The position numbers and the translations under genes are program-made. From Fidelibacterota bacterium (GTDB lineage Bacteria; Pseudomonadota; Alphaproteobacteria; Rhodospirillales; Rhodospirillaceae), in assembly GCA_947476625.1 (NCBI GenBank), contig CANJRA010000001.1, positions 310,001 through 374,000 of the forward strand: a DNA stretch of 64,000 nt, written 5' to 3'. Under the pieces are notes generated by a model, which was given only the letters and a program-made list of their open reading frames with translations, was not told the origin of the DNA and did no database searches. Each line of letters opens with the position of its first letter. Within the stretch, counting starts at the first letter, position 1. Shown here one piece after another: positions 9,343 through 60,388 of the stretch.

Positions 9343-10773
9343 ATGCGTCAGCTCCTGCTCTCCACTATCGCTTTAACCTTTGCCGCGTTGCCGGCGCTCG
9401 CCGCTGAAGTCAGTGTGTCCGCTGCCACGGGCGGCGCGGATGTGACGGTCTACAATAGCGATATTGCCATGGTGCGTGAGCGCCGCAGCTTCCGCCTGCC
9501 GTCGTCACCCGCGCAGCTTGCTTTTGCCGGTGTCAGCCGCAGCATGCAGCCGGAAACGGCGCTGCTGGAGGTGACGAAGGGTGATCCTATCAAGGTGACC
9601 GAGCAGGCTTTCAGCTTCGGCGTGATCTCGCCGCAAAGCCTTTTGCAGCAATCGGTCGGTCAGGAAGTGACCGTGATCTCGACCAACACCGCGACCGGTA
9701 AAGACCTCGCCCAGCGCGCGCGTGTCTTGAGCGTCGAGCAGGGCGTGGTGCTGGATATCGGCGGGAAGATTCATACAAGCGTCCCCGGACGCATTGTTTA
9801 TGACAGCCTGCCCGCCGGATTGCGGGCTACGCCGACGCTGGTGATGAGCGTCACCGGCCCGGCCAACAAAGACACCGATGCCGAGTTCAGCTATCTCACC
9901 AGCGGCCTGACGTGGCGCGCGGATTATGTGATGCAGTACGATCCCGATGCATCGCGCATGGACCTTGCGGCTTGGGCAACCATCACCAATACGACGGGCG
10001 TGGATTTCAAGGACGCGAAAGTGAAACTGGTCGCGGGCGATGTGAACCGCGTCGCGCGCCCTGAACCACCGACGCCGCCGCGCCCGATGATGATGCGCGA
10101 CCAGGAAATGGCCATGAGCGCTAAGACCATGGCCGATGACGTCGGCACGCAGACGCTCGACGCCAATCATATGTACACGATCGCGCGGCCGGTGACGCTG
10201 GCGGATAAGGAATCCCGGCAGCTGGCGTTGCTTACCGGCCAGGGAATCGCTGTGCGCCGCGAGCTGATTGTGCGCAACGAGCAGCCTTATATTTATCATA
10301 GCGCGATGCAGGGTCAGCCGCAGGAAACCCGCGCCGAGGCCGAGCTGATTTTCAAGAACGACGCCGCCGCCAAACTGGGTACGGCGCTGCCGGCGGGTAC
10401 GGTGCGGGTCTACGGCCCCGACGATCAGGGCGCGCCGCAGTTTCTGGGTGAAGCCAATATCGATCACGTGGCGTCGGGCAGTGAGGTGCGGGTGAAGCTG
10501 GGTCGTGAGTTCGACGTGCCGGTGACGCGCGAGCAGACCAATTTTGTCCATGCCTCGGACACCATCAACATCAGTGTCTGGAAAATTACCGTCAGGAACG
10601 CCAAGGCCAAGCCGATCAAGGTACGGGTGATAGAGCCGATGCCCGACACCTGGGAAATCACTAAGGAATCAAGCCCGCACAAGAACCCCACCTCCGGGAC
10701 GGTGGAGTGGCTGGTGGACGTGCCCGCCAAGGGCCAGACGGTCCTGGAATATAATGTGAAGTCGCACCTTTAA
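9343..10773 (+). CDS. DUF4139 domain exported protein
   Basis: The 476-residue protein has a signal peptide ending at PALAAEV (about residue 20). It continues with the DUF4139 beta-rich body: VTVYNSDIAMVRERRSFRLP, a central TSGLTWRADYVMQYDPDASR and LVAGDVNRVARPEPPTPPRP, a low-complexity Pro/Met hinge, and C-terminal repeats ending TVEWLVDVPAKGQTVLEYNV. Proteins of this group are exported and of unknown function. The ATG follows a short gap after the divergent rmuC, so the roughly 105 bases between them must hold both promoters. It is followed by def on the same strand. Confidence 0.8.
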   Translation: MRQLLLSTIALTFAALPALAAEVSVSAATGGADVTVYNSDIAMVRERRSFRLPSSPAQLAFAGVSRSMQPETALLEVTKGDPIKVTEQAFSFGVISPQSLLQQSVGQEVTVISTNTATGKDLAQRARVLSVEQGVVLDIGGKIHTSVPGRIVYDSLPAGLRATPTLVMSVTGPANKDTDAEFSYLTSGLTWRADYVMQYDPDASRMDLAAWATITNTTGVDFKDAKVKLVAGDVNRVARPEPPTPPRPMMMRDQEMAMSAKTMADDVGTQTLDANHMYTIARPVTLADKESRQLALLTGQGIAVRRELIVRNEQPYIYHSAMQGQPQETRAEAELIFKNDAAAKLGTALPAGTVRVYGPDDQGAPQFLGEANIDHVASGSEVRVKLGREFDVPVTREQTNFVHASDTINISVWKITVRNAKAKPIKVRVIEPMPDTWEITKESSPHKNPTSGTVEWLVDVPAKGQTVLEYNVKSHL

Positions 10774-46830: not shown

Positions 46831-48255
46831 CTAATTATACAGCACATCATTTGCGGGCGCATCGGGCATTGCGCCATCCCAGCCGCCGCCGAGGGCCTGG
46901 ACAAGCCCAACCACAGCGGTAAAGCGGGTCAGCGAGCTTTGCACGACCGACTCTTGCGCCTGGAAAGCGGTATTTTGGGCGTTAAGGACTGTCTGGAAGT
47001 CGATCGCGCCGGCGCGGTAGCGCAGCTCCGCGAGGCGGTAGGCAAGGTCAGCCTCGCTGCGGGCGGTTTGGATGAGCGCGTATTGCTGGGTGTTCTGATC
47101 CACCGCCGTCAGCGCATCCTCGACATCGCTAAAGGCCGCGATCACCGCTTGCTGATAGTTCTCGGCGACTTCGATGTATCTGGCGCGAGACGACTGTTCT
47201 TGTGCTTGCAGACGCCCGCCGGAGAACAGCGTTTCGGCGACGGACGCCCCAAAGCCATAGGCAAATGTGCCGGTGGTGAAGAGACTGGCCAGCGCGCCGC
47301 TGGAGCTGCCACCGCTGGCGGTCAACTGAATGCTGGGAAAGCGCGCGGCACGGGCGGCGCCGACATCGAAGTTGGCGGCGCGCAAAGAGGATTCGGCGCT
47401 GCGCAAATCGGGTCGGCGCACCATCAATGTCGACGGAATCCCCGCGCCGACGACCGGCAAGGCGACGTCGGCCAGACCGCGCGCCGCGATATCGAAGCCT
47501 TGCGGATTGCGTCCTACCAGCTCGGCAAGGGCGTCGAGGGATTGACGTTCGGCGAGACGTAGCGCCGGGATTGTCGCGCGTTGGCTGGCCAAAGCCGCGC
47601 GCTGTTGCGCGAGTTCAAGTTCAGACAGCGTGCCGACGCGGCGCTGGGTCTCGAGCAGGCGCAAGATCTCCTCGGCGTTTTTCAAGCGCTCACCCGCGAA
47701 GTACTGACGTTCGCGCGCCGATAAAACTTGGAGATAGGTGGTGATGACATTGGAAACCAAAGTGATTGCGACGGTTTCGCGGTCGTAGAGACTGGACTCA
47801 AGACGCTTGCCGGCCGACGCCGCCGAACTACGGACTGCGCCGAAGAGATCGAGCTGGTACGAAGCCTGCAATGAGCCTTGATAGCTGGTGGCGGTAACGT
47901 CGGGCCCAACGACCTGCCTGACGCTGCGGCTCGCGCTGCCGCCGGCTGAGACGGTTGGAAAAAACGCGGCGCCGGCGATCTTCGCCGAGGCTTCAGTTTG
48001 CAGGATGCGCGCGACAGCGGCTTTGAGCGAGTGGTTGTTGGTTTGCGCTTCCGCGATCAACTGATTGAGTTCATCGCTCTTGAAGCTTTGCCACCATGTC
48101 GCGTCCGGTGGAATCGGCATGACCGTGGTGTCCGACACCCGTACCGCGCTGTCCCATGCAGCAGGCGCTGCGATCTTGGGCGCATTCATCGACGCGCATG
48201 CCGACAATAAAAATACGGCGGATGTCAGAGCGGTCGAAGCAAAAAGGCGGCGCAT
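46831..48255 (-). CDS. Outer-membrane efflux lipoprotein (NodT/OprM family)
   Basis: From ATG 48255 the protein has a lipoprotein signal with LLSAC, making Cys20 the lipidated residue, then two TolC-type repeats with long helices and beta strands (QLDLFGAVRSSAASAG; LRAANFDVGAARAARFPSIQ). It forms the outer-membrane channel of a tripartite pump. The macB stop precedes this start by one base, so it is co-transcribed with macAB. An earlier start would overlap macB's end and is not supported. Confidence 0.92.
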   Translation of the reverse strand: MRRLFASTALTSAVFLLSACASMNAPKIAAPAAWDSAVRVSDTTVMPIPPDATWWQSFKSDELNQLIAEAQTNNHSLKAAVARILQTEASAKIAGAAFFPTVSAGGSASRSVRQVVGPDVTATSYQGSLQASYQLDLFGAVRSSAASAGKRLESSLYDRETVAITLVSNVITTYLQVLSARERQYFAGERLKNAEEILRLLETQRRVGTLSELELAQQRAALASQRATIPALRLAERQSLDALAELVGRNPQGFDIAARGLADVALPVVGAGIPSTLMVRRPDLRSAESSLRAANFDVGAARAARFPSIQLTASGGSSSGALASLFTTGTFAYGFGASVAETLFSGGRLQAQEQSSRARYIEVAENYQQAVIAAFSDVEDALTAVDQNTQQYALIQTARSEADLAYRLAELRYRAGAIDFQTVLNAQNTAFQAQESVVQSSLTRFTAVVGLVQALGGGWDGAMPDAPANDVLYN

Positions 48256-48256
48256 C

Positions 48257-50278
48257 TTACTCGGCTCCGAGTGCAACGACGGGATCGAGGTTGGCGGCCT
48301 TGCGCGCCGGCAAGTAGCCGAACAACACGCCGGTCGCAAAAGCACACGAGAAGGCCAGCAACACGGGCGCGAAAGAATATTCGACCGGCTTGCCGAAGTA
48401 AGCGAACGCAGCCGCGGTGCCGAGGCCGATGATAACGCCGATTATGCCGCCGAGCGAGCAGACCACCAGCGCCTCGGTGTTGAACTGCAGCAAGATATTG
48501 AGTTTCCGCGCGCCGGTGGCCATGCGAATGCCGATCTCGCGTGTGCGCTCGGTGACGCTGACCAGCATAATGTTCATGACGCCAATACCGCCGACCAGAA
48601 GCGAAATGGCGGCGACCGCGCCCAAGAGAATGGTGAGTGTGTTCTGGGTTTCGGTGGCGGTTTCCAGCACCGAGACCATGTTGCGGATTTGGAAGTCTTC
48701 GTTTTTGTGGCGTGCAATCAGTAACTGCGTAATGGCGGCCTGGGTTGCGTCGATCTTGGCGACGTCGGCGACGGCGACGGTAATCGTGCGCGCATAGCGT
48801 TGGCCGTAGATGCGCTGCGAGCCGGTCGTAATGGGAACGAAAATCTGATCGTCCATGTCGTTGCCATTGCTGCCGGCGCCCTTGGCTTCAAGAACGCCGA
48901 TGACAAGAAACGGATTGTTGTTGATGGCGATGTATTTACCGAGCGGGTCTTCGCCTTCGGTGAAGACGGCTTTCACGACGGTCTGGCCCATCACAACGAC
49001 CGGTGCGTAGGACTTTACATCCTCGTCGGTGAAGAAGGCGCCGTAAGCCACGGGCCAGTCGCGCGCGATGGTATAATCCGCCGTCGTTCCGTCGATCTGG
49101 GTTTGATAGTCATTCTTTTCGTAACGCACAGTGACGCCGGTAGGAAATTCGGGCACGGCAGCATCGACATTGGGCAGCTCGGCGATGGCTTCGGCGTCGG
49201 CGGGAACCAGTGTGGCGCGGAAACCGCCGGTGAAACGCTGATTAGGCGCGCCGGGACGAATCAGCAGTAGATCGGTGCCCATGGCCGAGATGCGGTCGAG
49301 CACCTGTTGCTTGGCGCCGTTGCCGATGGCGAGCATGGCGACGACCGACGCGACGCCGATAATAATGCCGAGCAGCGTCAGCATGGTGCGCATGAGATTG
49401 TTGCTGAGCGAGTGCATCGCCATTTTCCCGGCTTCCACGACATCGGGCACGCTGGCCCAGTTAGGCGCGGGGCCAAGGCCCTCGGGTTTGATGGCTTGCG
49501 CGGCGCGCGCGGCGTCGGGTTTGAGGGCGCCCGTGTCCGACGTGATCGTCCCGTCTTTTATTTCGATAACGCGTTTGGCTTGATGCGCGACGTTAGCGTC
49601 GTGAGTAATGATCAGGATGGTGTGGCCTGCGTCATTGAGCTCGTGCAGCAGCTTCATGACGTCGGTGCCGCTTTTGCTGTCGAGCGCGCCGGTGGGTTCG
49701 TCGGCGAGGATCACGGCGCCGCCATTCATAAGGGCGCGCGCGATCGACACACGCTGCTGCTGGCCGCCGGATAATTGGTTGGGACGGTGATCGAGGCGTT
49801 CACCGAGGCCGAGTGAGCTTAATAATTTTTGTGCGCGTTCGATGCGCTGGGCGTGCGAGAGGCCGGCGTAAACCGCCGGCACTTCGACGTTCTGTGTCGC
49901 GGAAGCTGCGGCGAGCAGATTGTACTGCTGAAAAATGAAACCGAACGCCCCGCGGCGCAGCAGCGCACGCTGATCGGCGTCTAAGCCGGAGACTTCATGA
50001 CCGGCGAAAAGATAGCTGCCCGACGACGGCCGGTCGAGGCAGCCCAGGATGTTCATCAGTGTGGTTTTACCCGAGCCCGATGCGCCCATGATGGCTACCA
50101 TCTCGCCGGGATAGATATCGAGCGACACGCCGTGCAGGACTTGCACGGCCAATTCGCCGTTGTTGTAGGTCTTGGTGATGTCCTTGAGCGCGATGATCGG
50201 TTGCGCGTCCGATTGCGGCGATTGGGTGTCGTCGCTGCGGTTATGCGCGTCGCGCTTGGGATTGGTGAGATTGGTCAT
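48257..50278 (-). CDS. macB: MacB-type ABC efflux ATPase/permease
   Basis: The 673-residue protein has an N-terminal ATPase with Walker A GASGSGKT (about 65-72), signature [15 protein letters not shown] and Walker [13 protein letters not shown]. Its C-terminal FtsX-like permease has one early membrane helix and three late ones ([40 protein letters not shown]). MacB proteins move peptides, macrolides or other molecules from the periplasm through a TolC channel, using mechanotransmission. Its start overlaps the end of macA by 4 bases. Confidence 0.95.
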
Positions 50279-51666
50279 ATGCGCGGACCGCCGCCGAAGC
50301 CGCCGGGCCCACCACCGCCTTGGCGACGGCCGTTTGCCGGCTGCGTGCCGCCATCAAGCACGACTTCGTCGCCGACTTTGAGACCGGATTTTACTTCCGC
50401 CGAAAGCCGGTTCATGACGCCGATTTCCACTTCGCGCGTTACCACGTCTCCATCCTCTATGACGTGCACGGTATAGCGTGTGGGCTGCACAGTGCTGGGA
50501 CGTTCGCGGCGGCGCGGGCGATCAGTTGCGGTCGGCGGTGCGCCGGGCGTGACTTCGGTTGTGGCGGGAGCCGTGTTCGGTGTTGCGGGTGGGGTGTCGG
50601 TCGCGCGGCTGCGCCGTTCGCCGCCGTCCGCCGGATTGTCTGCGCGTGCTGTACGGATAGGATGCAATGCCGTCACGGGAACGACCGGTACTTGGCGCGC
50701 GGAGGCTACAACGAAAAACACTTGCGCGCTCATTTGCGTGAGGAGATCGCGGTCGGGATTCTCGACATCGAAAAGGCTGTTATAGAGCACGACGTTGTTG
50801 ACGACGTCGGGCGTCGGAATGATTTGACGCAGTTTGCCGTAACGCCGCTTGTCGGATGTGCCGAGCGTCGTGAAATAGGCCTCCATGCCGATTTTCAACT
50901 TCGGCACGTCGGCTTCCGACACTTGCGCCCACACCGTCATGGTATCCAAGTCGGCGATGCGTAATACGATTGGCGCGGTCTGGTTCGCGTTCAGGGTCTG
51001 ACCTTCTTTGGCGATGAGATTCACCACCGTGCCTTCCATGGGCGCATAGATTTTGGTGTAGCCGAGATTGGCAAGGTCGCCGCTCAAAGTAGATTCGGTC
51101 TGCTTGATCTGTGCTTCGAGTTGAGCGATCTGCGCGACGTTGACTTTCAGGTTTGAATCCGATGTGTCGTAATCGTTCTGGCTGGTAGCGTTTTCTTTCA
51201 GCAATTCCTTCTGACGCGTGAACTGCAGGTTGGCGAGCGTGCGTTGGGCCTGACGTTGCGCAAGTTGTGCCTTGAGATTGAGAAGCTGGGCTTCGTCGGC
51301 ATTGACGCGCGACTGGTAAATAGTCGGATCGATTTCGGCCAAGAGATCGCCCTTCTTGACCATAGCGCCGTAGTCCACATGCAGGACTTTAAGCTGGCCG
51401 GACACCTGCGTGCCGACATCGACGTATTGCAGCGGTTGCAGTGTGCCAAGCGCCGTCACCGTATCTTCGATAGTGCCGATGGCGACTTTTTGTGTGAGGT
51501 GGGCAGTCTCGGAGCCGCTACGCCCCCAGATCGCCCAGGCGCCAAGTCCGATAACCAGCACAACGGCTGCGGCCAGGGCGGGCAGCATCCAACGCGGGCG
51601 GCTCTTTCCGACGAAGGTGGCGGACGCCATTTTAAGGGGAGAGATTTTGGACGGTTCAAACATCAT
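50275..51666 (-). CDS. macA: MacA-type periplasmic adaptor
   Basis: The 463-residue protein has one N-terminal membrane helix (about 28-48, [20 protein letters not shown]). It continues with the lipoyl half [20 protein letters not shown], a long coiled-coil hairpin (about 110-205), the second lipoyl half [20 protein letters not shown] and beta-barrel/MP domains. The C-terminal region contains a Pro/Thr/Ala-rich stretch ([17 protein letters not shown]) and a Gly-rich end. It bridges MacB and the outer-membrane protein. No regulator gene is next to the operon. Confidence 0.93.
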
Positions 51667-51919: not shown

Positions 51920-52690
51920 ATGAGGCTAGTTTCCTCCATCGGACACGCGTGGGCGCTGACCTACGTGACATTGGTGATCGTGCTGTTGGGCGCGCTCGGC
52001 CTGGCTGTCCTGGTCGCGGCGGCCGTCAGTTTCGGGCCTTTTGATGCGTGGTTTGTGTTCGGTGCCGTGGCGACCTATGCCGGCGGCGCGCTGATCATGG
52101 TGGCGCGGATCGGCGGTTATCATCCATTCCCCCGTTTTGGCGCGGCCAATACCGTGACCCTGGTCCGGTTCGCGTTAACCTGCGTTATTGCCGGTTTGGT
52201 CCTGCAGACCTTGGTGTCGTCGATTTCGCTTTCGCCGGCCATGGGATGGGCTTCTTTCGGTCTGGTCGCTGTCGCCATGGTGTTCGATGGGATCGATGGC
52301 TATTGCGCCCGCCGTCAGGGCTTGTCGTCCCGTTTTGGTGCGCGCTTCGATATGGAGACGGACGCACTCCTGATTTTCCTGCTGTCGATTACAGCTCTGA
52401 CACTCGAAAAGGCAGGTTGGTGGGTGCTGGTGGGGGGGCTGCTACGCTATATATATGTGGCCGCAGGCTGCGTGTGGCCGATATTGAACGAACCCTTACG
52501 GCCCTCGATGCGGCGCAAGGCCATTTCCGCGATCCAGGGCGGCGTGCTGGCGACACTGCTGGTCCCGATCATTACACCGCCTTTCAGCACCACGATTGCG
52601 GCTATCGCTATGGTTCTTCTGGTGTATTCCTTCGGGCAGGATGTGTTTTGGATTCTGCGCCGCCCCACAGCCAAACACGCGCACCGATGA
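51920..52690 (+). CDS. CDP-alcohol phosphatidyltransferase family membrane enzyme
   Basis: The 256-residue protein has about six membrane segments and the family motif DGxDGxxARxxGxxxxxGxxxDxxxD, seen here as FDGIDGYCARRQGLSSRFGA then RFDMETDA. These enzymes transfer a phosphoalcohol from CDP-linked donors to another alcohol in phospholipid synthesis. The exact pair cannot be read. It is followed 13 bases later by the LtaS-like gene, so the two are probably an operon that handles a phosphoglycerol or similar head group. Confidence 0.9.
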   Translation: MRLVSSIGHAWALTYVTLVIVLLGALGLAVLVAAAVSFGPFDAWFVFGAVATYAGGALIMVARIGGYHPFPRFGAANTVTLVRFALTCVIAGLVLQTLVSSISLSPAMGWASFGLVAVAMVFDGIDGYCARRQGLSSRFGARFDMETDALLIFLLSITALTLEKAGWWVLVGGLLRYIYVAAGCVWPILNEPLRPSMRRKAISAIQGGVLATLLVPIITPPFSTTIAAIAMVLLVYSFGQDVFWILRRPTAKHAHR

Positions 52691-52703
52691 GAAGCATTGC
52701 TTT

Positions 52704-54374
52704 ATGACTAGCCGCAAGTTCGCGCGCCGCGAAGAACGCTCCATTCTTGGACAAGGCCTCGGCTGGATTCTGGCGCTCGGCGTCCTCTATTTCATTCTGG
52801 TGCTGCCGGACCGGCTTGGTGCGCTGCGCGCCGTGGAGACGTGGTGGCTGCCGCTGGAACTGCCGCTCATCGTGTTTGTGCTGGTGGCGGCGCCGGGGGT
52901 GCTGCGCGCGCTCGTGCGTGTCGTCATTGCCTTCTCGCTTGCGGTGGTGTTGCTTTTTAAAATTGCCAACATGGCGGCGTACTTCGGTTTTGCACGGCCC
53001 TTTAGCCCGCTGGTCGATGCGCTGATGGTCCCGACGTTGCTTGATACGTTGAGCAAGGCTGCGGGTAAGGGTGCTGCGATAGGCGCGCTCGCGGGTGTGG
53101 CCGTGATCGTGTTGCTGTTGCTGACGCTGCTGGCATGGGTGACAGGCACGGTCGGCAGCGGTGTGCACCAACGTAATCGCGCAGGCGTGGCGCTGGTGGC
53201 GCTCGCGGTCGTGGGGCTCGGGTTCACCCAATACGCAAGTTTCAACGCCAGCCGTTTCGTGCGCGCGCAAACGGTGATGATCGCGCAAAGTCTGCGCGAC
53301 GCCGAGCAGTTCCGCGTGCAGTTGCTCGAAAACCCCTTTGCTGATTTGCCTGTAGACCAAAAACTCGCGGGCCTTAAAAACGTCGACGTGCTGCTGATTT
53401 TTGTTGAGGCTTACGGCCGCGCGGCTTTGGACAATCCCGCCTATGCGCCGAAATTGCGCGCAACGTTGCAGCAGTTTGGCGCGGAGCTTCAGGAAAAAGG
53501 ATTTGCCGCGCGCAGCGGCTGGATGGTCTCGCCGACGTTCGGCGGCGAAAGTTATCTGGCACACAGTACGGCTGTGTCGGGACTTTTGGTCAACGATCAA
53601 CAGCGCTATGTGCAGCTTCTGCGCAGCCAGCGGCGCACGCTGGTTCATGATTTTAATGATGCCGGTTGGCGCACAGTGGCGGTGATGCCCGAAATCACGA
53701 TGCCCTGGCCCGAGGCCGATTACTTTACCTTCGGCAAAATCTATACGGCGCAGAATTTGGAATATAAGGGCAAGTCGTTCGAGTACATGACCATGCCCGA
53801 CCAGTACACGCTGTCGGCCTTTCAGACGCGCGAGCTGGCACCAACGGACCGCAAACCGGTGATGGCGGAAATTGCGCTGGTCTCGAGTCATATTCCCTGG
53901 GCGCCGATTCCGAAGCCGGTGCCGTGGGAGAATGTGGGAGACGGCAGCATATTTACGACAGAGCGTACGCCGGAGACCGCCGATGACGTGTGGCGCACGC
54001 CGTCGCGCGTGCCGGAGTTTTATGCGCTCTCGATCGACTATACGTTGCAAACGCTTAAGTCGTTCGTCACGACCTATGGCAACGAGCGCACTTTATTTAT
54101 CATCATCGGCGATCACCAGCCGATGACCTTCATCGCCGGAGAGGGCGCGCCACATGATGTGCCGGTCCATATGATTGCTAAAGATCCAGCGATTCTGGCG
54201 GCTTTGGATGAAGGCGCTTGGGCCGCCGGCATGGAGCCGGATGCCGCCAGTGCGCCGTGGCCGATGGACAGTCTGCGCGCGCGTATCCTTCAGGCTTTCA
54301 CGCGCGTAGCGAATGCGCCATTGTCGGCGGAATCTGAGGCCCCTCCTCAAACAGCACCGCAGGCGAAGCCGTAA
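52704..54374 (+). CDS. LtaS/sulfatase-type phosphoglycerol transferase-like membrane enzyme
   Basis: From ATG 52704 the protein is 556 residues. Four or five N-terminal membrane helices (about 16-35, 50-90, 125-147, 158-175) precede an extracytoplasmic alkaline-phosphatase/sulfatase-fold domain. Metal site features are the Glu of FVEAYGR (235), SPTFGGES (276-283) where LtaS has its nucleophilic Thr, GDHQP and HDVPVHMIA. LtaS-like enzymes move phosphoglycerol groups; exact chemistry here is unknown. An upstream open frame to 52596 overlaps the preceding gene and is not supported. The start is 13 bases after the CDP-alcohol enzyme, and the stop overlaps the next ATG by one base. Confidence 0.85.
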   Translation: MTSRKFARREERSILGQGLGWILALGVLYFILVLPDRLGALRAVETWWLPLELPLIVFVLVAAPGVLRALVRVVIAFSLAVVLLFKIANMAAYFGFARPFSPLVDALMVPTLLDTLSKAAGKGAAIGALAGVAVIVLLLLTLLAWVTGTVGSGVHQRNRAGVALVALAVVGLGFTQYASFNASRFVRAQTVMIAQSLRDAEQFRVQLLENPFADLPVDQKLAGLKNVDVLLIFVEAYGRAALDNPAYAPKLRATLQQFGAELQEKGFAARSGWMVSPTFGGESYLAHSTAVSGLLVNDQQRYVQLLRSQRRTLVHDFNDAGWRTVAVMPEITMPWPEADYFTFGKIYTAQNLEYKGKSFEYMTMPDQYTLSAFQTRELAPTDRKPVMAEIALVSSHIPWAPIPKPVPWENVGDGSIFTTERTPETADDVWRTPSRVPEFYALSIDYTLQTLKSFVTTYGNERTLFIIIGDHQPMTFIAGEGAPHDVPVHMIAKDPAILAALDEGAWAAGMEPDAASAPWPMDSLRARILQAFTRVANAPLSAESEAPPQTAPQAKP

Positions 54375-55141
54375 TGTTCGTACCTTTCGTTCAGCAAACA
54401 CAGACCGCCGTTTGGCCAAGCGACAGTGTCGCTATTTTGCCGCTGGCGGCGGTTGAAGCGCATGGACCGCATCTGCCGTTAGGCACCGATGGTTTCATCG
54501 CTGAAGCGATCCTCGATCATGCCGCGCAGCGCGACGGGGGTACGGCTTCATTTGTACGCTTGCCGCTGTTGTGGCTGGGTGCCTCGGCGGAACACAGCGA
54601 CCGCGCGGGAACCTTGAGCCAGGAACCAGAGCGGCTGATCGCGCAGATTGTCGATATCGGTGCGGGACTTGCGCGGTGCGGTCTTCGCCGCGTGATATTG
54701 TTCAACGGTCACGGCGGCAACATCGCGGCCGGCAGCATCGCGGCGCTGAAGCTGCGCACGCAGTTCAATATGCTGGCGGCCAGTGCGCATTGGCTCGACT
54801 TCGGCGTGCCCGAAACTATCACGCCGCCTACGCCAGTTGTGAATGATGTGCACGGCGGCTGGGTGGAGACGTCAGTGTTGCTGCATCTGGCGCCGCATTT
54901 AGTCGTGATGGATAAGGCCGCCGCACGCCCCGCCGAACCGCCGGCAAAGAGTTTGTTTCCTACCGGGCCGATTACCTGGGGCTGGAAGCTTGACGATCTA
55001 TCGGCTGAAAGCATGGGCGGTTGGATCGGCGCGCCCAACCTCGCAACGGCGGAACTCGGCAAGGCCTTGATCGATCATGCTGCCGAAAAACTTCTTCAGA
55101 CGCTCAGGGAAATTGCCGCAGCGCCTTGGTCAGTTAAGTAG
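54374..55141 (+). CDS. Creatininase-family amidohydrolase
   Basis: The 255-residue protein has the metal motifs of the family: LAAVEAHGPHLPLGTDGFIA, FNGHGGNIAAG and DVHGGWVETS. Family members include creatininase, the archaeal ArfB deformylase that acts on a formylaminopyrimidine in riboflavin/F420 synthesis, and MftE peptidase in mycofactocin synthesis. No mycofactocin gene is present here, and the neighbouring GTP cyclohydrolase II makes an ArfB-like pterin/flavin-type role attractive, but this is inference. The ATG overlaps the upstream stop by one base. Confidence 0.88.
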   Translation: MFVPFVQQTQTAVWPSDSVAILPLAAVEAHGPHLPLGTDGFIAEAILDHAAQRDGGTASFVRLPLLWLGASAEHSDRAGTLSQEPERLIAQIVDIGAGLARCGLRRVILFNGHGGNIAAGSIAALKLRTQFNMLAASAHWLDFGVPETITPPTPVVNDVHGGWVETSVLLHLAPHLVVMDKAAARPAEPPAKSLFPTGPITWGWKLDDLSAESMGGWIGAPNLATAELGKALIDHAAEKLLQTLREIAAAPWSVK

Positions 55142-55144
55142 CGC

Positions 55145-56284
55145 TTATTTCCGAACGACCTTGCGCACGATGCTCTCGAGCATGTGCCCGGCGCGTTCGG
55201 CTTTGGTTGTCAGGTAATAATGATTGTGCGGATTGACGTCGCCGACGATGCGTTGATGGCCGACGACATTGACGCCGAAGTTCTCCAGCGCTGAAATCTT
55301 TTCCGGGTTGTTGGTCATTAACGTGATGCGGCGGTATCCCAGCAGCGAGAGCATGGCGCCGGCGACTGCGTAACGGCGCTCGTCGGGCTCGTAGCCCAGC
55401 ACCGCGTCGGCATCCAACGTGTCGTGGCCCAAGGCTTGCAAACCGTAAGCGCGCATTTTGTTAAGCAGGCCGATGCCGCGGCCTTCCTGGTCGAGATACA
55501 GCAACGCACCGCTGCCCGCCGCCGCGATTTCATCAACGGCCCGGCGCAATTGATCGCCGCAGTCGCACTTGAGGCTGGCAAACAAATCGCCGGTCAAACA
55601 TGCAGAGTGCAGGCGCGTCAGTACCGGCTGATGAGAATTAGGCTTGCCGATAACAATGGCGATTTGGTCGTGCAAACCGTCGCCGCCGCGAAAGATCACA
55701 AACTCGGCGTCGGGGGCTTCGGCTAAAGGCACGCCCGCCCGCGCGGCGATGGTGAGATCGCGCGCCGATTGTTCGTGGAAGTTAGTGATGGCGGCCGCAT
55801 CGACTTCCAACAAGGATGTTTGGTAGCTTGCTTCCGCGGGCAGCACGACGGCGGCGGGCAGAAGGTAGGCGCGCTTCACAAGATCCAGCGCCGCGACTTC
55901 AAGCGTATCGGCCGGGCGATGTTCGATCGTGGGTATGCGCGGCTGTACGGCGATGAGGATGGTTTCAATCTCCTCGCCGGTCAGGCCGTCGAGCGAGAGA
56001 TGCGACGGGGTCGCGGTGTCGATACCAAGGTGGCCCAAACGCGGGGCCGGAAGAATCAGGCCCGGCGCGCCGCCGGTGGCGCGGTGCCAGGCGGCAATAC
56101 GCTCGCCGCCGAGCATTTCCGCCGCGGCGACAGTCAGGCTCGCGCCGCCCGCACCTGTGACCTTCACGGGCCGTCCGGCGCGCAGTTCGCTCCGGGCGCG
56201 TTGGACGGTCAGGCGCTCGGGGTTACCGAACCACCTTGCCAAGTCGCCATCTACCGTACCAATCTTCACGTCTTCGTTGGGCAC
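55145..56284 (-). CDS. ribA: GTP cyclohydrolase II with N-terminal extension
   Basis: The 379-residue protein has a C-terminal GTP cyclohydrolase II domain: LTRLHSACLTGDLFASLKCD gives the zinc cysteines with the following CG, YLDQEGRGIGLLNKMRAYGL the catalytic region and LMTNNPEKISALENFGVNVV the GTP-binding end. Its reaction opens the imidazole ring of GTP, giving diaminohydroxy-ribosylaminopyrimidine phosphate. The first about 170 residues (RARSELRAGRPVKVTGAGGA) look like a degenerate relative of the DHBP synthase half of RibBA fusions. It is convergent with the creatininase gene and divergent from the RibD-domain gene. Confidence 0.93.
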   Translation of the reverse strand: MPNEDVKIGTVDGDLARWFGNPERLTVQRARSELRAGRPVKVTGAGGASLTVAAAEMLGGERIAAWHRATGGAPGLILPAPRLGHLGIDTATPSHLSLDGLTGEEIETILIAVQPRIPTIEHRPADTLEVAALDLVKRAYLLPAAVVLPAEASYQTSLLEVDAAAITNFHEQSARDLTIAARAGVPLAEAPDAEFVIFRGGDGLHDQIAIVIGKPNSHQPVLTRLHSACLTGDLFASLKCDCGDQLRRAVDEIAAAGSGALLYLDQEGRGIGLLNKMRAYGLQALGHDTLDADAVLGYEPDERRYAVAGAMLSLLGYRRITLMTNNPEKISALENFGVNVVGHQRIVGDVNPHNHYYLTTKAERAGHMLESIVRKVVRK

Positions 56285-56313
56285 ACAGAACCTATTCGTT
56301 TAACAAAATCATC

Positions 56314-57093
56314 ATGGACGCCATTGTGGACTGGGACAGGGACACTCCGCAATGGTTGGCGGTATTGGCCGCAGCCGGTGGTTGTGGGTCTGTACCAGCA
56401 CCTTTGCATAACGCCCTATGGCCCCTGTATGGCCCACTGACCCCGGCGAAATCGGGAGAAGACTTTATTATCGGGCAATTGGGGCAATCCTTGGACGGTC
56501 GCATTGCCACCCCCACCGGGCATTCCCACTATATAAACGGCAAGGCCGCCATTGTGCATCTCCACCGCCTGCGCGCGCTGGTGGACGCGGTTGTGGTGGG
56601 GATCGGCACAGTGGTGGCGGACGACCCGCAGCTAAATGTGCGCCACGCCGCGATGAATAAAGGCACATTGCCTCCGGCGCGGGTGGTGATCGATCCTTCC
56701 GGCCGCCTTGCGTCCACCGCCAAATGTTTGACCGAAGACGGCGCGCGGCGAATCGTGCTGCGCGGTATGGGTGCCGATCACGTTAGCGTGAGCGGCGTCG
56801 AGACACTGCATGTGCCGAGCGCAGGGGGCATGAAGCCGGCGGATATTCTGGCGGCCTTGCGGGGCATCGGGTTGCGCCGGATTCTGGTGGAAGGCGGCGC
56901 GCATACGCTCTCGCGGTTTTTGCAGGCCGGATGTTTGAACCGTCTGCACATTATGACCGCGCCGATGATTATCGGCTCGGGGCCCATCGGTCTTCACCTG
57001 GCCGACATAGATAATTTAAGCGCGGCGCTGCGACCGCGCGTTGCATCCTTCGCATTGCCGGAAGGCGACATACTTTTCGACTGCGCGTTCTAA
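56314..57093 (+). CDS. RibD C-terminal/dihydrofolate reductase-like protein
   Basis: The 259-residue protein is a stand-alone RibD reductase-type domain: IIGQLGQSLDGRIATPTGHS, VDAVVVGIGTVVADDPQLNV, PARVVIDPSGRL, ILVEGGAHTLSRFLQAGCLN and GSGPIGLHLADI. In riboflavin synthesis this domain uses NADPH to reduce the ribosyl group of a deaminated pyrimidine. The deaminase half is missing. ATG 56314 begins MDAIVDWDRDTPQW; an upstream frame to 56236 overlaps ribA. The two starts are 29 bases apart, so promoters would have to overlap. Confidence 0.88.
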   Translation: MDAIVDWDRDTPQWLAVLAAAGGCGSVPAPLHNALWPLYGPLTPAKSGEDFIIGQLGQSLDGRIATPTGHSHYINGKAAIVHLHRLRALVDAVVVGIGTVVADDPQLNVRHAAMNKGTLPPARVVIDPSGRLASTAKCLTEDGARRIVLRGMGADHVSVSGVETLHVPSAGGMKPADILAALRGIGLRRILVEGGAHTLSRFLQAGCLNRLHIMTAPMIIGSGPIGLHLADIDNLSAALRPRVASFALPEGDILFDCAF

Positions 57094-57096
57094 ACG

Positions 57097-57933
57097 CTAT
57101 TGCGCGATGTGAGCGAAGACGTCGCGGTGGCCGACGGTCATTTTTTGTACACGCGCATCTTTGTTCCAGGCCGCTAAATCCGCAGTAGCGATTGCGCCGG
57201 TCTCTCCGACGGCTTGTAAGATTCCATCTACCGTCGCCGTGAGCAAGGGACCGTCCGACGCGCGCAGTTGCCACGGACTATCGCCGATGGTGAGGCGGTA
57301 ACCCGCGTCGCGCAAAGTGTCTTCCAGCACGCGCGCGGCATCGGCGCCGGCGGCGGGGCCAAAACCTTTATCGCGGCTTTGGTGGCTGCGAAAGCTCGCG
57401 GCAATTTTTTCATCGAGCGCATGAGTCGGGGTCGCGGTGAGAATGCCGTCGGTGGTGAGCGTCGAGAGTAATGGTGTGCGCCGCGCGGCGAGGGCCGCGA
57501 CAAAGCGCGCGATCCACGGCGCCGACGTTAAATCAAAAAGCGCCGTCGCCGTGACCAGATCGGTCTCGGCTGGCCAGCACGCGGCGTCGTTCGCGAAATC
57601 ATGCACGTGTGTACGGATATGAATCTCGCGCGTGCCATGGCGCAGGCGCAACGTGTCACCTTCGGAAGCAGCGCTGTCTGCCCAAACCGCGAGCGCGGTC
57701 TTCGCCGCGGCGAGATTGTCGGCGTCGTTGTCGACGAGTGTCCAGTGTTGGCGTACCGGCAGTAAATTGGAAAATGCGCGCACAGCAGCGCCGGTGCCGC
57801 TGCCGAGATCGCAGACGGAAATAGACTCGCGTGTCATGAACGCGTCGCGGCAGGCCGCTAATACCGTGCGATCGCGCGCGGCCGCGTCGGCAGGTTCGCG
57901 CAACGCCAACCAGTCCGGTGAAAAACCACTCAC
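57097..57933 (-). CDS. Class I SAM-dependent methyltransferase
   Basis: With GTG 57933 (MSGFSPDWLALREPADAAAR) the protein has 278 residues, with a SAM motif VCDLGSGTGAAVRAF, VDNDADNLAAAK and TATALFDLTSAPWI. The start overlaps the glycosyltransferase stop (GTGA), which supports it; a frame extends to 57948 with a less likely start. The acceptor is unknown. It is the last gene of the ADH-PTPS-GT4-methyltransferase run. Confidence 0.87.
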   Translation of the reverse strand: MSGFSPDWLALREPADAAARDRTVLAACRDAFMTRESISVCDLGSGTGAAVRAFSNLLPVRQHWTLVDNDADNLAAAKTALAVWADSAASEGDTLRLRHGTREIHIRTHVHDFANDAACWPAETDLVTATALFDLTSAPWIARFVAALAARRTPLLSTLTTDGILTATPTHALDEKIAASFRSHQSRDKGFGPAAGADAARVLEDTLRDAGYRLTIGDSPWQLRASDGPLLTATVDGILQAVGETGAIATADLAAWNKDARVQKMTVGHRDVFAHIAQ

Positions 57934-58976
57934 GCTGCACCCGCCCACAAAGCCTCGGCCACCTGCGCGGCGGTGTCATTCCAATCTTGCAGGGCTTGAC
58001 CGTGTTTCCACGACGCATCACCGAGATTTTTGCGCAGGTTCCGATCAGTCAGAACCTGACGCAGCGCCGTCGCCAGCGCGGCAGGATTTTCCGCAGGGAC
58101 AAGAATGCCTGCATCTGCAGGCACGGTATCGGTGACGGCACCGGCAGCGCACGCGACGATCGGCAATCCCCGCGCCAGTGCTTCGGCGAAAACCATGCCG
58201 TAGCCTTCATGACGTGACGGCAGCACGAAGATATCAGCCTCAGCGTAGGCGGCGGCGAGGGCTTCGTCCTGCAGTTCACCACGCAGTGCGATGCGATCAC
58301 GCAAGTGATGTTGTGTGATCAAATCGTGTACGCGCTGGGTTACTGCGGGATCGCGTTCCTGACTGCCGACGACGGCGCTTGTCCAGGGTATATCAGTGAT
58401 TTCTGCGAGGGCGTTGATGAGAATGTCATGGCCCTTGCGGTGCGTGAGTGTCGCCACGGTCAAAAGTTTGGGAACCGCATTGGCGGGTTGCGCACGTGGC
58501 GCGGGGTCGGTTCCGGGCAATGCGAGATGCATGTACGCCGGCGGTACGCCGTAATCGCGGACAAGACATTGCGCGGTATGCGGACTGGTGGCGATGACGG
58601 TCTGAGCGAGCGCCAGCGCCGCGCGCTCCGATGTCTTGACGCGGTGCACGTCGGCTTCGGACAAGCCGGTTTCATCGGCCAGCGGATGATGCACCAAAGC
58701 AATGAGCGTGAGGTCGAGTTCCGCGAGAAGGTCCGGCGGCATGACGCCGAAGGCCAGTCCATCTATCAACACCGGTGTGCCGGACGGCAGTTGCATCAGG
58801 ATGTCGCGAGTCAGCGCCAGTTCCTCGGTCGACGGGTTCGGAAACCCGCCGGGCAACGGTACATGATGCGGTGTCCATCCGGCGGCAGGCAGCGCGGCCA
58901 TCAAACGGCGCGCGTAGCCGTAGCCGCCCGTCAGCGCGTTTAAATCTCCCGGAATTGCGAACCAGACATCAGGCAC
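57930..58976 (-). CDS. GT4-family glycosyltransferase
   Basis: The 348-residue protein has the GT-B fold: IPGDLNALTGGYGYARRLMA at the N-terminus, LTVATLTHRKGHDILINALA in the middle, and the C-terminal donor-binding SRHEGYGMVFAEALARGLPI with the E-x7-E motif, then ILVPAENPAALATAL. It would transfer a nucleotide sugar to an acceptor that cannot be read. It is encoded between the PTPS-like protein and the methyltransferase on the same strand. Confidence 0.93.
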   Translation of the reverse strand: MPDVWFAIPGDLNALTGGYGYARRLMAALPAAGWTPHHVPLPGGFPNPSTEELALTRDILMQLPSGTPVLIDGLAFGVMPPDLLAELDLTLIALVHHPLADETGLSEADVHRVKTSERAALALAQTVIATSPHTAQCLVRDYGVPPAYMHLALPGTDPAPRAQPANAVPKLLTVATLTHRKGHDILINALAEITDIPWTSAVVGSQERDPAVTQRVHDLITQHHLRDRIALRGELQDEALAAAYAEADIFVLPSRHEGYGMVFAEALARGLPIVACAAGAVTDTVPADAGILVPAENPAALATALRQVLTDRNLRKNLGDASWKHGQALQDWNDTAAQVAEALWAGAA

Positions 58977-58990
58977 CGGCCGATCTCACA

Positions 58991-59389
58991 TCAGATATCT
59001 GATTCGTATGACGCCAGCGCGTTGTGGGATTCGTGCAGCGTGATTTTCATACGGGCGAGGCCGCTGGCCGAGGGGCCGAGCTTGCCCGCGGCGATGGCGG
59101 CTTTCATTTTGTCGAACACCCACTTGGCGACGGTTTCGGTGGTCGAGCGGCGGCCTTTGAAGTCGGGATGTTCGTCGAGATTGCTGTAGTTGATGCTGGC
59201 GAGCGTGGCCTTCACCGTGTCGATGGCGAGGCCGATATCGACGACGATGTCGTTTTCGTCGAGTTCCTTACGCATGAGGCACACATCAATAACGTAGGTG
59301 GCGCCGTGTAACTTCTGGGCCGGACCAAAGACCTCGCCTTTGATACTGTGGGCGATCATGACGTGGTCACGGACTTCTACGGCGTACAT
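58991..59389 (-). CDS. PTPS/QueD-like protein with altered catalytic residues
   Basis: The 132-residue protein has the T-fold of 6-pyruvoyl-tetrahydropterin synthase and QueD: EVRDHVMIAHSIKGEVFGPA, KLHGATYVIDVCLMRKEL, the middle VVDIGLAIDTVKATL, LDEHPDFKGRRSTTETVAKW and LHESHNALASYE at the end. In QueD three His bind zinc and a Cys is catalytic. Here His14 and His28 remain, but the second His of HGH is Ala30 and the Cys position is Ala24. So the usual QueD reaction is not expected to be unchanged. It is next to a dehydrogenase and a GT4 gene. Confidence 0.88.
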   Translation of the reverse strand: MYAVEVRDHVMIAHSIKGEVFGPAQKLHGATYVIDVCLMRKELDENDIVVDIGLAIDTVKATLASINYSNLDEHPDFKGRRSTTETVAKWVFDKMKAAIAAGKLGPSASGLARMKITLHESHNALASYESDI

Positions 59390-59407
59390 GCTGCGTGTTC
59401 CTTATTT

Positions 59408-60388
59408 CTACGTGTAACGAATGACGGTCATCAAACCGGTGCTGGCATTGACGAGCACGCCCGGCAATTGCGCCGGAGCATCGGTAAAGGCGATTTCGCC
59501 GGTGATCAAGACATCGAAGCGGTCGTCGCGCAATAAATCGAGGGCGGCGGCCATGCGCCTGGCATAGGTCCAGCGCGCGCGGTGCGAGGCGGGCACAGCG
59601 CCGACTTGCGAGGAAATCAATTGCAGGCGTCGCGAATGAAAGGCTTCTCCCAAAGAGAGTGCGACGGTCTTGTCGCCATACCAACTGGCTTCGACGACAC
59701 GCGCTTCCGTCCCGGCACATGACAAGGCCACGGCAAGGCCCGCCGGGTTGCTGCTGGTGTGGATGACGATGTCCTGGTCTTGCGGCGCGGCGTCGGGTTG
59801 CACAAAACGCGCACCGAGTTTTTGTGCGACGGAAGCGCGCGTGGGATCGATATCGGCCACCGTGACGTCAGTGCCCGGAATGCGTGCGACGATGCCGGCA
59901 ATAAGAAGGCCTAGTACGCCGCCGCCGATAATGAGAATGCGGTCGCCGGGTGCGGCCTGCGCATCCCAGGTGATGTTGAGCGCGGTTTCCATATTGGCAG
60001 CGAGGCAGGCGCGGCGCGGCGGCAGATCCTTGGGCAGCGTGTTCACCGCCGTCAGCGACACGTTGAGCTGGCGTTGATGTGGGTGCAGCACAAAGACGTG
60101 TTCACCGATGCGCGCTTTCGGGCCGTCTTCAATGACGCCGACCAGCGCGTAGCCGTATTTTACCGGAAAGGAGAAGTCGCCCTCTTGGTTCGGGCATCGC
60201 ATGCGCTGGTGTTCGGAAACCGGCACGCGGCCGTGGCAGACCAGGCGTTCGGTGCCGCGGCTGACGCCGGAATATAGCGCCGCGACGCGCACGTCATCGG
60301 CGCCAAGTGTTGCGAGCGTTGAGGAGCGGATCTCGGCCCGCCCTTTGCTCACGTACCAAACTGCTTCGGTTTGCAAAATACCCCCCAC
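59408..60388 (-). CDS. MDR-family dehydrogenase, BchC-like
   Basis: The 326-residue protein has the medium-chain dehydrogenase fold: ALYSGVSRGTERLVCHGRVP at the N-terminus, KYGYALVGVIEDG, a Rossmann motif DRILIIGGGVLGLLIAGIVA with the acidic VADIDPTRASVAQ, and HSRRLQLISSQVGAVPASHR. The GVSRGTE site replaces the usual GICGTD Cys, and no structural-zinc cysteine cluster is seen, as in BchC-type enzymes. It is the first gene of a minus-strand run and starts opposite the TonB receptor gene. Confidence 0.85.
   Translation of the reverse strand: MGGILQTEAVWYVSKGRAEIRSSTLATLGADDVRVAALYSGVSRGTERLVCHGRVPVSEHQRMRCPNQEGDFSFPVKYGYALVGVIEDGPKARIGEHVFVLHPHQRQLNVSLTAVNTLPKDLPPRRACLAANMETALNITWDAQAAPGDRILIIGGGVLGLLIAGIVARIPGTDVTVADIDPTRASVAQKLGARFVQPDAAPQDQDIVIHTSSNPAGLAVALSCAGTEARVVEASWYGDKTVALSLGEAFHSRRLQLISSQVGAVPASHRARWTYARRMAAALDLLRDDRFDVLITGEIAFTDAPAQLPGVLVNASTGLMTVIRYT

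Follow-up and report, generated by a model that had tools for sequence, protein, structure and literature searches.

The nine genes described here form part of a real but uncharacterised pathway, which is found in hundreds of bacterial genomes and, in related form, in haloarchaea. The probable role of this cluster is to open GTP and to make from it a methylated ring compound that bears a sugar; enzymes that could attach the compound to a membrane phospholipid are often included. That the block acts as one dedicated pathway of biosynthesis and attachment is given roughly even chances. The genes lie in the window, the whole stretch of 64,000 nucleotides that was analysed, and are listed below with their Pfam scores.

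51920–52690, plus strand: CAPT, a CDP-alcohol phosphatidyltransferase, membrane protein of 256 residues (PF01066, CDP-OH_P_transf, 67.7 bits)
52704–54374, plus strand: LTAS, an LtaS-like phospho-alcohol transferase of 556 residues (Sulfatase family at the cut-off, 25.4 bits against 25)
54374–55141, plus strand: CREA, a creatininase-family amidohydrolase of 255 residues (PF02633, Creatininase, 199 bits)
55145–56284, minus strand: RIBA, a GTP cyclohydrolase II of 379 residues (PF00925, GTP_cyclohydro2, 170 bits)
56314–57093, plus strand: RIBDr, a stand-alone RibD reductase domain of 259 residues (PF01872, RibD_C, 127 bits)
57097–57948, minus strand: MT, a class I SAM-dependent methyltransferase of 283 residues (predicted fold; 22.7 bits)
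57930–58976, minus strand: GT4, a GT4-family glycosyltransferase of 348 residues (PF00534, Glycos_transf_1, 107 bits)
58991–59389, minus strand: PTPS, a PTPS-like protein of the FGPAQ (PTPS-IV) subfamily, 132 residues (PF01242, PTPS, 78 bits)
59408–60388, minus strand: ADH, a BchC-like MDR-type dehydrogenase of 326 residues (24.6 bits; weak NCBIfam match to BchC)

The scores of MT and ADH lie under the Pfam cut-offs, and both families are evident from their relatives. The start codons chosen for LTAS and RIBDr are the ATGs at 52704 and 56314, and ADH opens the minus-strand unit. The compact arrangement of nine genes with tiny gaps or overlaps described in the first-pass annotation was found in full at these positions, with spacings from −19 to +29 bp.

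Conservation of the gene block

The same annotation had raised the possibility that these neighbours are grouped beyond chance, and their joint conservation in relatives bears this out. Carriers, defined here as PTPS-positive genomes, number 27 among 398 sampled Pseudomonadota genomes; MT is found in 26 of the 398, and both genes coincide in 25 (Fisher p = 3e-36, a value that ignores phylogeny). The cluster is carried by approximately 7% of these genomes. The order ADH-PTPS-GT4-MT is kept in 23 of the 24 cluster regions from other Pseudomonadota genomes, the same gene order extends across proteobacterial classes, and a scan of GTDB retrieved at least 584 relatives. The core extends to Actinomycetota and also to haloarchaea, the homologues in the latter being more distant. 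Two near relatives (L064 and L065) have no MT at the site. Many of the ORF families among the neighbours were wrong-strand shadows and were left out. At the level of sequence comparison, these data establish the block as an evolutionarily conserved unit. In their sequences, RIBA, RIBDr, CAPT and LTAS retain the hallmarks of GTP cyclohydrolase II, RibD-type reductases, CDP-alcohol phosphotransferases and LtaS-type phospho-alcohol transferases, respectively.

ADH shares 46–55% identity with 19 relatives, and its best NCBIfam match, BchC, scores far under the cut-off. The MT model (pLDDT 95.6) adopts a small-molecule methyltransferase fold (best Z 19.8), and the fold search returned only generic small-molecule enzymes, with no acceptor indicated. 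In some Gammaproteobacteria GT4 and MT are fused in frames of approximately 650 residues, which suggests that both act on a common substrate.

Opening of GTP by RIBA, and the roles of RIBDr and CREA

Entry of the pathway from GTP is well supported. RIBA holds an N-terminal extension of approximately 190 residues without a Pfam match, and in the alignment it retains the three zinc cysteines, the EGRG loop and the tyrosine of the RAY motif, so that it is predicted to be a GTP cyclohydrolase II with the tyrosine of the complete enzyme. RAY is present in every proteobacterial row that aligns there. Many carriers without a clustered RIBA have another PF00925 gene, as expected if the product of RIBA can be borrowed. 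Haloarchaeal versions of the cluster hold GTP cyclohydrolase III, which is not homologous to cyclohydrolase II, beside ADH, and this replacement argues for the opening of the GTP ring as the entry point.

RIBDr, in which Pfam detects no deaminase domain, keeps its conserved motifs in a 22-row alignment and is predicted to be a RibD-type reductase. An orthologue is present in 24 of the 27 carriers and missing from the other three.

CREA exhibits five residues (E28, H30, D39, H113, and E165) that are invariant in 16 relatives. The analogy with ArfB that the first-pass annotation had drawn for this protein is suggestive only: CREA scores 25.4 bits with the curated ArfB model, whose cut-off is 180, and it scores higher with the MftE and creatininase models, yet below their cut-offs. 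Moreover, the proteobacterial cyclohydrolases look complete, and 7 of the 27 carriers lack a strong CREA match. A RIBA that halts at a formylated product and needs CREA is unsupported in Proteobacteria, where RAY is kept in the aligned rows. A cyclohydrolase copy from Streptomyces fungicidicus holds RAM instead of RAY and is encoded next to a creatininase, and from its sequence it is plausible that this enzyme goes no further than the formylated stage and depends on the creatininase. The effect of the RAY/RAM residue on the cyclohydrolase is reportedly known from work on SCO6655.

Envelope-associated genes and alternative targets

CAPT carries the motif DGxxARx8GxxxDxxxD, invariant in 20 relatives, which places it in the CDP-alcohol phosphotransferase family. 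LTAS comprises an N-terminal helical (membrane) part and an alkaline-phosphatase-superfamily domain with six invariant residues (E235, S283, H396, D470, H471, and H489), and the nearest folds to its model (pLDDT 88.9) are those of LtaS, LtaP, GacH, and EptC (Z 20–22). The membrane helices, the alkaline-phosphatase-type domain and the metal-site residues point to an enzyme of the LtaS/EptA type. LTAS resembles the LtaS/GacH/EptC/OpgB-type transferases in its fold, its metal-site residues and its CDP-alcohol phosphotransferase partner; unlike them, it is tied to a GTP-heterocycle cluster, and a sequence search of the PDB found no relative of it at E 0.01.

Orthologues of CAPT and LTAS occur in an identical set of 15 of the 27 carriers, even where the two genes are unlinked. 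This strict co-occurrence, together with the LtaS/GacH/EptC-like fold of LTAS, makes attachment of the product to the membrane plausible. However, the remaining 12 carriers lack both genes, which indicates that attachment is not universal. The same 12 core carriers favour a possible, if somewhat doubtful, alternative, according to which two independent modules share one address: one makes the GTP heterocycle (RIBA-RIBDr-ADH-PTPS-GT4-MT), and the other handles a phospho-alcohol at the envelope (CAPT-LTAS, joined by a flippase in relatives). What CAPT and LTAS add to glycans or lipids would then be an ordinary alcohol, and the shared address would reflect a common role in the envelope or in stress. 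In some genomes CAPT and LTAS are encoded on a different contig or replicon, and plasmids without PTPS can bear CAPT-LTAS pairs; both facts point in the same direction. On the other hand, a CAPT homologue is a direct or close neighbour of ADH in Alpha- and Gammaproteobacteria as well as in Streptomyces and Microbacterium, and on one haloarchaeal plasmid it is two genes from ADH. Actinomycetes, in addition, have no periplasmic glucan to be decorated. A flippase-like gene adjoins CAPT in many loci of the relatives.

It is unlikely that the cluster product is a substituent of the osmoregulated periplasmic glucan made by OpgGH, even though OpgH is encoded in 54 loci, mainly adjoining ADH, and OpgG is present in 21 of the 27 carriers against 87 of the 371 other genomes. 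Plasmid pDSHI05 from Dinoroseobacter also joins opgG-mdoH-b561-CAPT-LTAS-flippase to a cluster-type GT4. Nevertheless, the genome of the window has no OpgG (no PF04349 match), which, for this genome, rules out the glucan as a universal target, and one further carrier (G265) holds CAPT and LTAS but no OpgG. The presence of the core in actinomycetes and haloarchaea also speaks against such a target. Carriers without CAPT and LTAS usually have OpgH as the neighbour of ADH, and among the regions retrieved it is only in those from such genomes that OpgH directly adjoins ADH.

The PTPS-IV protein, known pathways and a proposed route

The PTPS protein of the window matches PDB entry 3d7j, SCO6650 from S. 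coelicolor (E 3.5e-42). SCO6650 is said to hold no zinc and to lack PTPS activity. Among 100 sequences, the motif FGPAQ..HGAT is nearly invariant, the position of the catalytic cysteine is occupied by Ala or Gly, and that of the third zinc histidine by Ala in all of them. The CxxxHGH, CxxxxxHGH, and ExxHGH motifs of QueD/PTPS-I, -II, and -III are absent, with FGPAQ..HGAT in their place, and the FGPAQ signature assigns the protein, by its sequence, to the PTPS-IV subfamily (PMC5445326). In the parts of that paper dealing with the PTPS-IV network, the subfamily forms AGeNNT cluster-node 62, with 561 sequences; this node, like SCO6650, shares with the block the FGPAQ motif and the neighbours PF00925 and PF01872. 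Those parts give the node just these two neighbours and no function, and leave unmentioned GT4, MT, ADH, CAPT, LTAS, the flippase, OpgH, and the replacement by GTP cyclohydrolase III. A literature search on the gene set found no description of it: in the relevant passages, the published record is limited to PTPS-IV beside RibA and RibD (PMC5445326) and an attribution to F420 synthesis, for which Zallot et al. cite unpublished evidence (PMC5041015). A 2026 review of bacterial pterins mentions none of riboflavin, cyclohydrolase II, glycosyltransferase, or pyruvoyl.

The canonical riboflavin genes, whose presence elsewhere the first-pass annotation had left to be checked, form a ribD-ribE-ribBA-ribH operon on contig C8 of the same genome, so the block is not its sole riboflavin set. 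The genome also holds a further RibA and another PTPS-family (PF01242) protein. Thus, the block is not the riboflavin or queuosine supply of this genome, queuosine being ruled out by the loss of the QueD/PTPS motif as well as by the second PF01242 protein. RIBA and RIBDr, with their residues kept, resemble the first two steps of riboflavin synthesis in the archaeal/fungal order, where reduction occurs without prior deamination, but by Pfam the block holds just RibA and RibD_C, without deaminase, lumazine synthase or riboflavin synthase. F420 synthesis is disfavoured, since a search that was positive in archaeal controls detected CofD in none of 25 carriers. Hence, it is very improbable that the block is a redundant locus for riboflavin supply, pterin, queuosine, or F420 whose neighbours are unrelated, despite the GTP cyclohydrolase II, RibD reductase, and PTPS-family protein that this would explain and the F420 role cited above.

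Toxoflavin-like clusters re-employ RibA- and RibD-like enzymes alongside a methyltransferase and can be likened by description to the block, but none is known to have PTPS, GT4, or CAPT genes. In cyanobacteria and Chlorobium, the route to pterin glycosides begins with GTP cyclohydrolase I and biopterin. By description, the block is set apart from this route by cyclohydrolase II or III, RibD_C, CAPT, and LTAS. What the two would have in common is the idea of a pterin that receives its sugar from a dedicated glycosyltransferase (PMC5683033, PMC13259868).

In the preferred reading of a dedicated pathway, GTP cyclohydrolase II (clustered or housekeeping, or III in haloarchaea) would open GTP to a diamino-ribosylamino-pyrimidinone phosphate, and RIBDr would convert its ribosyl into a ribityl group on the undeaminated ring, so that a pterin-like 2-amino-4-oxo ring remains. 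ADH would oxidise an alcohol of the RIBDr-derived compound. The T-fold protein of the PTPS-IV type, in which the metal site is altered and the ring-binding Glu kept, would rearrange or close this compound into a pterin-like product, which GT4 would glycosylate and MT would methylate. CREA may remove a formyl group or another amide, most likely where the cyclohydrolase halts at a formylated intermediate. In approximately half of the carriers, including the genome of the window, CAPT would couple the polyol to a phospholipid, the flippase-like protein of many relatives would carry the conjugate across the membrane, and LTAS would transfer the phospho-conjugate to an acceptor on the outer side, which in genomes with OpgGH could be the periplasmic glucan.

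The first-pass annotation had envisaged a GTP-derived heterocycle that is glycosylated, methylated and attached to the membrane; its entry from GTP is well supported and its attachment is plausible, while the product is unproven and so is the order of the steps, which is a guess. Tentatively, the product may represent a new class of membrane-anchored metabolites in bacteria and haloarchaea. It would be the glycoside of a pterin- or pyrimidine-polyol that derives from GTP by way of riboflavin-type intermediates; CAPT would link it to phospholipid, and once flipped it would be transferred by LTAS to an outer glycan or other acceptor. The block points to GTP ring-opening chemistry that branches off from riboflavin synthesis ahead of deamination, and perhaps to a head group of lipids or glycans that is new. 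It also provides a concrete enzyme set for the unexplained PTPS-IV subfamily, whose solved structure 3d7j is still labelled "uncharacterized protein", and the strict pairing of CAPT with LTAS and the exchange of GTP cyclohydrolase II for III make individual steps testable. A cytochrome b561 gene is present in 37 loci, on account of which the envelope component could be redox- or UV-active.

The nine-gene block and its conservation

All nine genes that the first-pass annotation had placed at 51920-60388 were confirmed in the sequence, start sites being the only changes:

CAPT-LTAS-CREA, + strand: CDP-alcohol phosphatidyltransferase, LtaS-like transferase (start refined to ATG 52704) and creatininase-family amidohydrolase
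55145-56284, - strand: RIBA, GTP cyclohydrolase II
Start refined to ATG 56314, + strand: RIBDr, stand-alone RibD reductase domain
ADH-PTPS-GT4-MT, - strand: MDR-type dehydrogenase, PTPS-like protein, glycosyltransferase and methyltransferase

This block is almost certainly a conserved functional unit. Among 398 Pseudomonadota genomes, MT (searched with the methyltransferase) was found in 26 and PTPS in 27 (the carriers), both being common to 25 (Fisher p 3e-36, phylogeny ignored). In the 24 cluster-holding regions fetched around these matches, which exclude the window's own genome, ADH always adjoins PTPS (24/24) and the order ADH-PTPS-GT4-MT is kept in 23, so the joint conservation on which the earlier proposal depended is borne out. 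A GTDB-wide scan with the ADH alignment returned at least 584 relatives, the best 80 of which come chiefly from Alphaproteobacteria (Hyphomicrobiales, Rhodobacterales, Acetobacterales), and also from Gammaproteobacteria and Burkholderiales. Pairwise divergences are correlated beyond 200 permutations for nearly all gene pairs, the exceptions being PTPS-RIBA, RIBA-LTAS and LTAS-CREA.

GT4 and MT form a single frame of ~650 aa in some Gammaproteobacteria, MT has moved to the other side of OpgH in two Burkholderiales (L119, L142), and none was found at the site in two close relatives (L064, L065). MacA-MacB-TolC-type export genes, which may be product exporters or old synteny, occupy 46831-51666, immediately left of CAPT; MacA/MacB or TolC relatives also lie past CAPT in the four closest relatives (L064-L067).

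Probable entry by GTP ring opening

The pathway very probably begins with the opening of the GTP ring. GTP cyclohydrolase III, which also opens this ring, is unrelated by descent to GTP cyclohydrolase II, and is encoded directly 5' of ADH in Natrarchaeobaculum (Pfam 293 bits) and in Haloarcula halophila (272 bits); this non-homologous replacement is the best single argument for such an entry. The ADH homologues of haloarchaeal plasmids are more remote (219–257 bits against the family model); three of the four plasmids also hold genes for a PTPS-family protein and a methyltransferase, two hold CAPT, and one a creatininase gene. The PTPS of two haloarchaeal loci (L180, L181) keeps an HSH motif and lacks FGPAQ, and therefore represents a sister type; on Haloarcula marismortui pNG700 (9997-10461), the PTPS frame next to ADH is broken in the record and unannotated. 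In actinomycetes, plasmids carry CAPT-ADH-PTPS-GT4-MT with creatininase and RibA (Streptomyces fungicidicus) or followed by flippase-RibD (Microbacterium). A Streptomyces anthocyanicus plasmid holds a solitary FGPAQ-type PTPS (here FGSAQ; L147 9001-9426) next to MEKHLA and cupin genes, the cluster being absent.

RIBA has kept what marks a complete GTP cyclohydrolase II (the cysteines, the EGRG loop and the Tyr) in all proteobacterial rows aligning there, and catalytic motifs are kept in CREA. The clustered RIBA is missing from many genomes possessing other PF00925 genes, which argues that its product can be borrowed. RIBA (55145-56284; L060 5677-6867) has an N-terminal extension of ~190 aa without a Pfam match. 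RIBDr, present in 24 of the 27 carriers, lacks the deaminase domain. The window PTPS, which matches the structure of the uncharacterised SCO6650 (3d7j), belongs to the FGPAQ subfamily; the catalytic Cys and third zinc His are missing in 100/100 sequences, while two His are kept, plus a Glu whose expected role is to bind a pterin-like ring. This subfamily is called PTPS-IV in PMC5445326, which had already put its association with RibA- and RibD-family neighbours in print. No description of the cluster at its larger extent, of CAPT paired with LTAS, of OpgH as an alternative or of GTP cyclohydrolase III as a replacement was found in the literature searched, whose coverage leaves out most subscription journals.

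The product is probably GTP-derived, glycosylated and methylated, its structure and the order of steps being inferred. An unpublished statement places PTPS-IV in F420 synthesis (PMC5041015); contrary to it, CofD was not found in 25 carriers. Against queuosine stands a second PF01242 protein, probably QueD, on contig C2 of the window's genome. Riboflavin supply is ruled out by a separate nrdR-ribD-ribE-ribBA-ribH-nusB operon on contig C8 (names from translations and two Pfam searches) and a further long RibA on contig C1, the canonical genes that the first-pass annotation had proposed to look for elsewhere. A second cyclohydrolase, at C1:103751, aligns with RIBA over residues 26-369, including the N-terminal extension.

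Possible membrane attachment and a possible periplasmic glucan link

The GTP-to-lipid idea of the first-pass annotation is well supported for its entry by the kept RIBA residues and the GTP cyclohydrolase III stand-in, membrane attachment being plausible from the CAPT/LTAS pairing and the LTAS fold. Both proteins keep their catalytic motifs, and their orthologues occupy an identical set of 15/27 carriers (chance under random placement 6e-8, relatedness ignored), where they lie several times on separate contigs or far apart. In the LTAS model (pLDDT 88.9), the N-terminal part is helical and is joined by a domain whose fold is nearest LtaS, LtaP, GacH, EptC and EptA (Z 19–22, ~260–280 residues, rmsd 3.4–4.1), which transfer phospho-alcohols off phospholipids. 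From this fold and the shared genomes, the natural reading is that CAPT would make a phosphatidyl-alcohol whose head group LTAS would then move; the chances are even that the two attach the GTP-derived product. Many loci hold a flippase-like LPG_synthase_TM gene together with CAPT.

OpgH occurs in 54 loci, mostly divergent to ADH. In the fetched regions, it adjoins ADH in 8/10 genomes without CAPT and LTAS versus 0/15 with them, and there are likely two alternative wirings of one core (OpgH or CAPT/LTAS). OpgG is enriched among carriers (21/27 versus 87/371 other genomes) and absent from the window's genome; several Gammaproteobacteria have OpgG or OpgGH placed between LTAS and CREA.

No cytochrome b561 gene was found in the window's block; one is present in 37 loci, often between MT and RIBDr or close by (e.g., L074 13305-13883), which hints at a redox link. 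Dinoroseobacter plasmid pDSHI05 carries opgG-mdoH-b561-CAPT-LTAS-flippase and a cluster-type GT4, with an ABC transporter (binding protein, ATPase, permease; L182 9133-12498) between the flippase and GT4.
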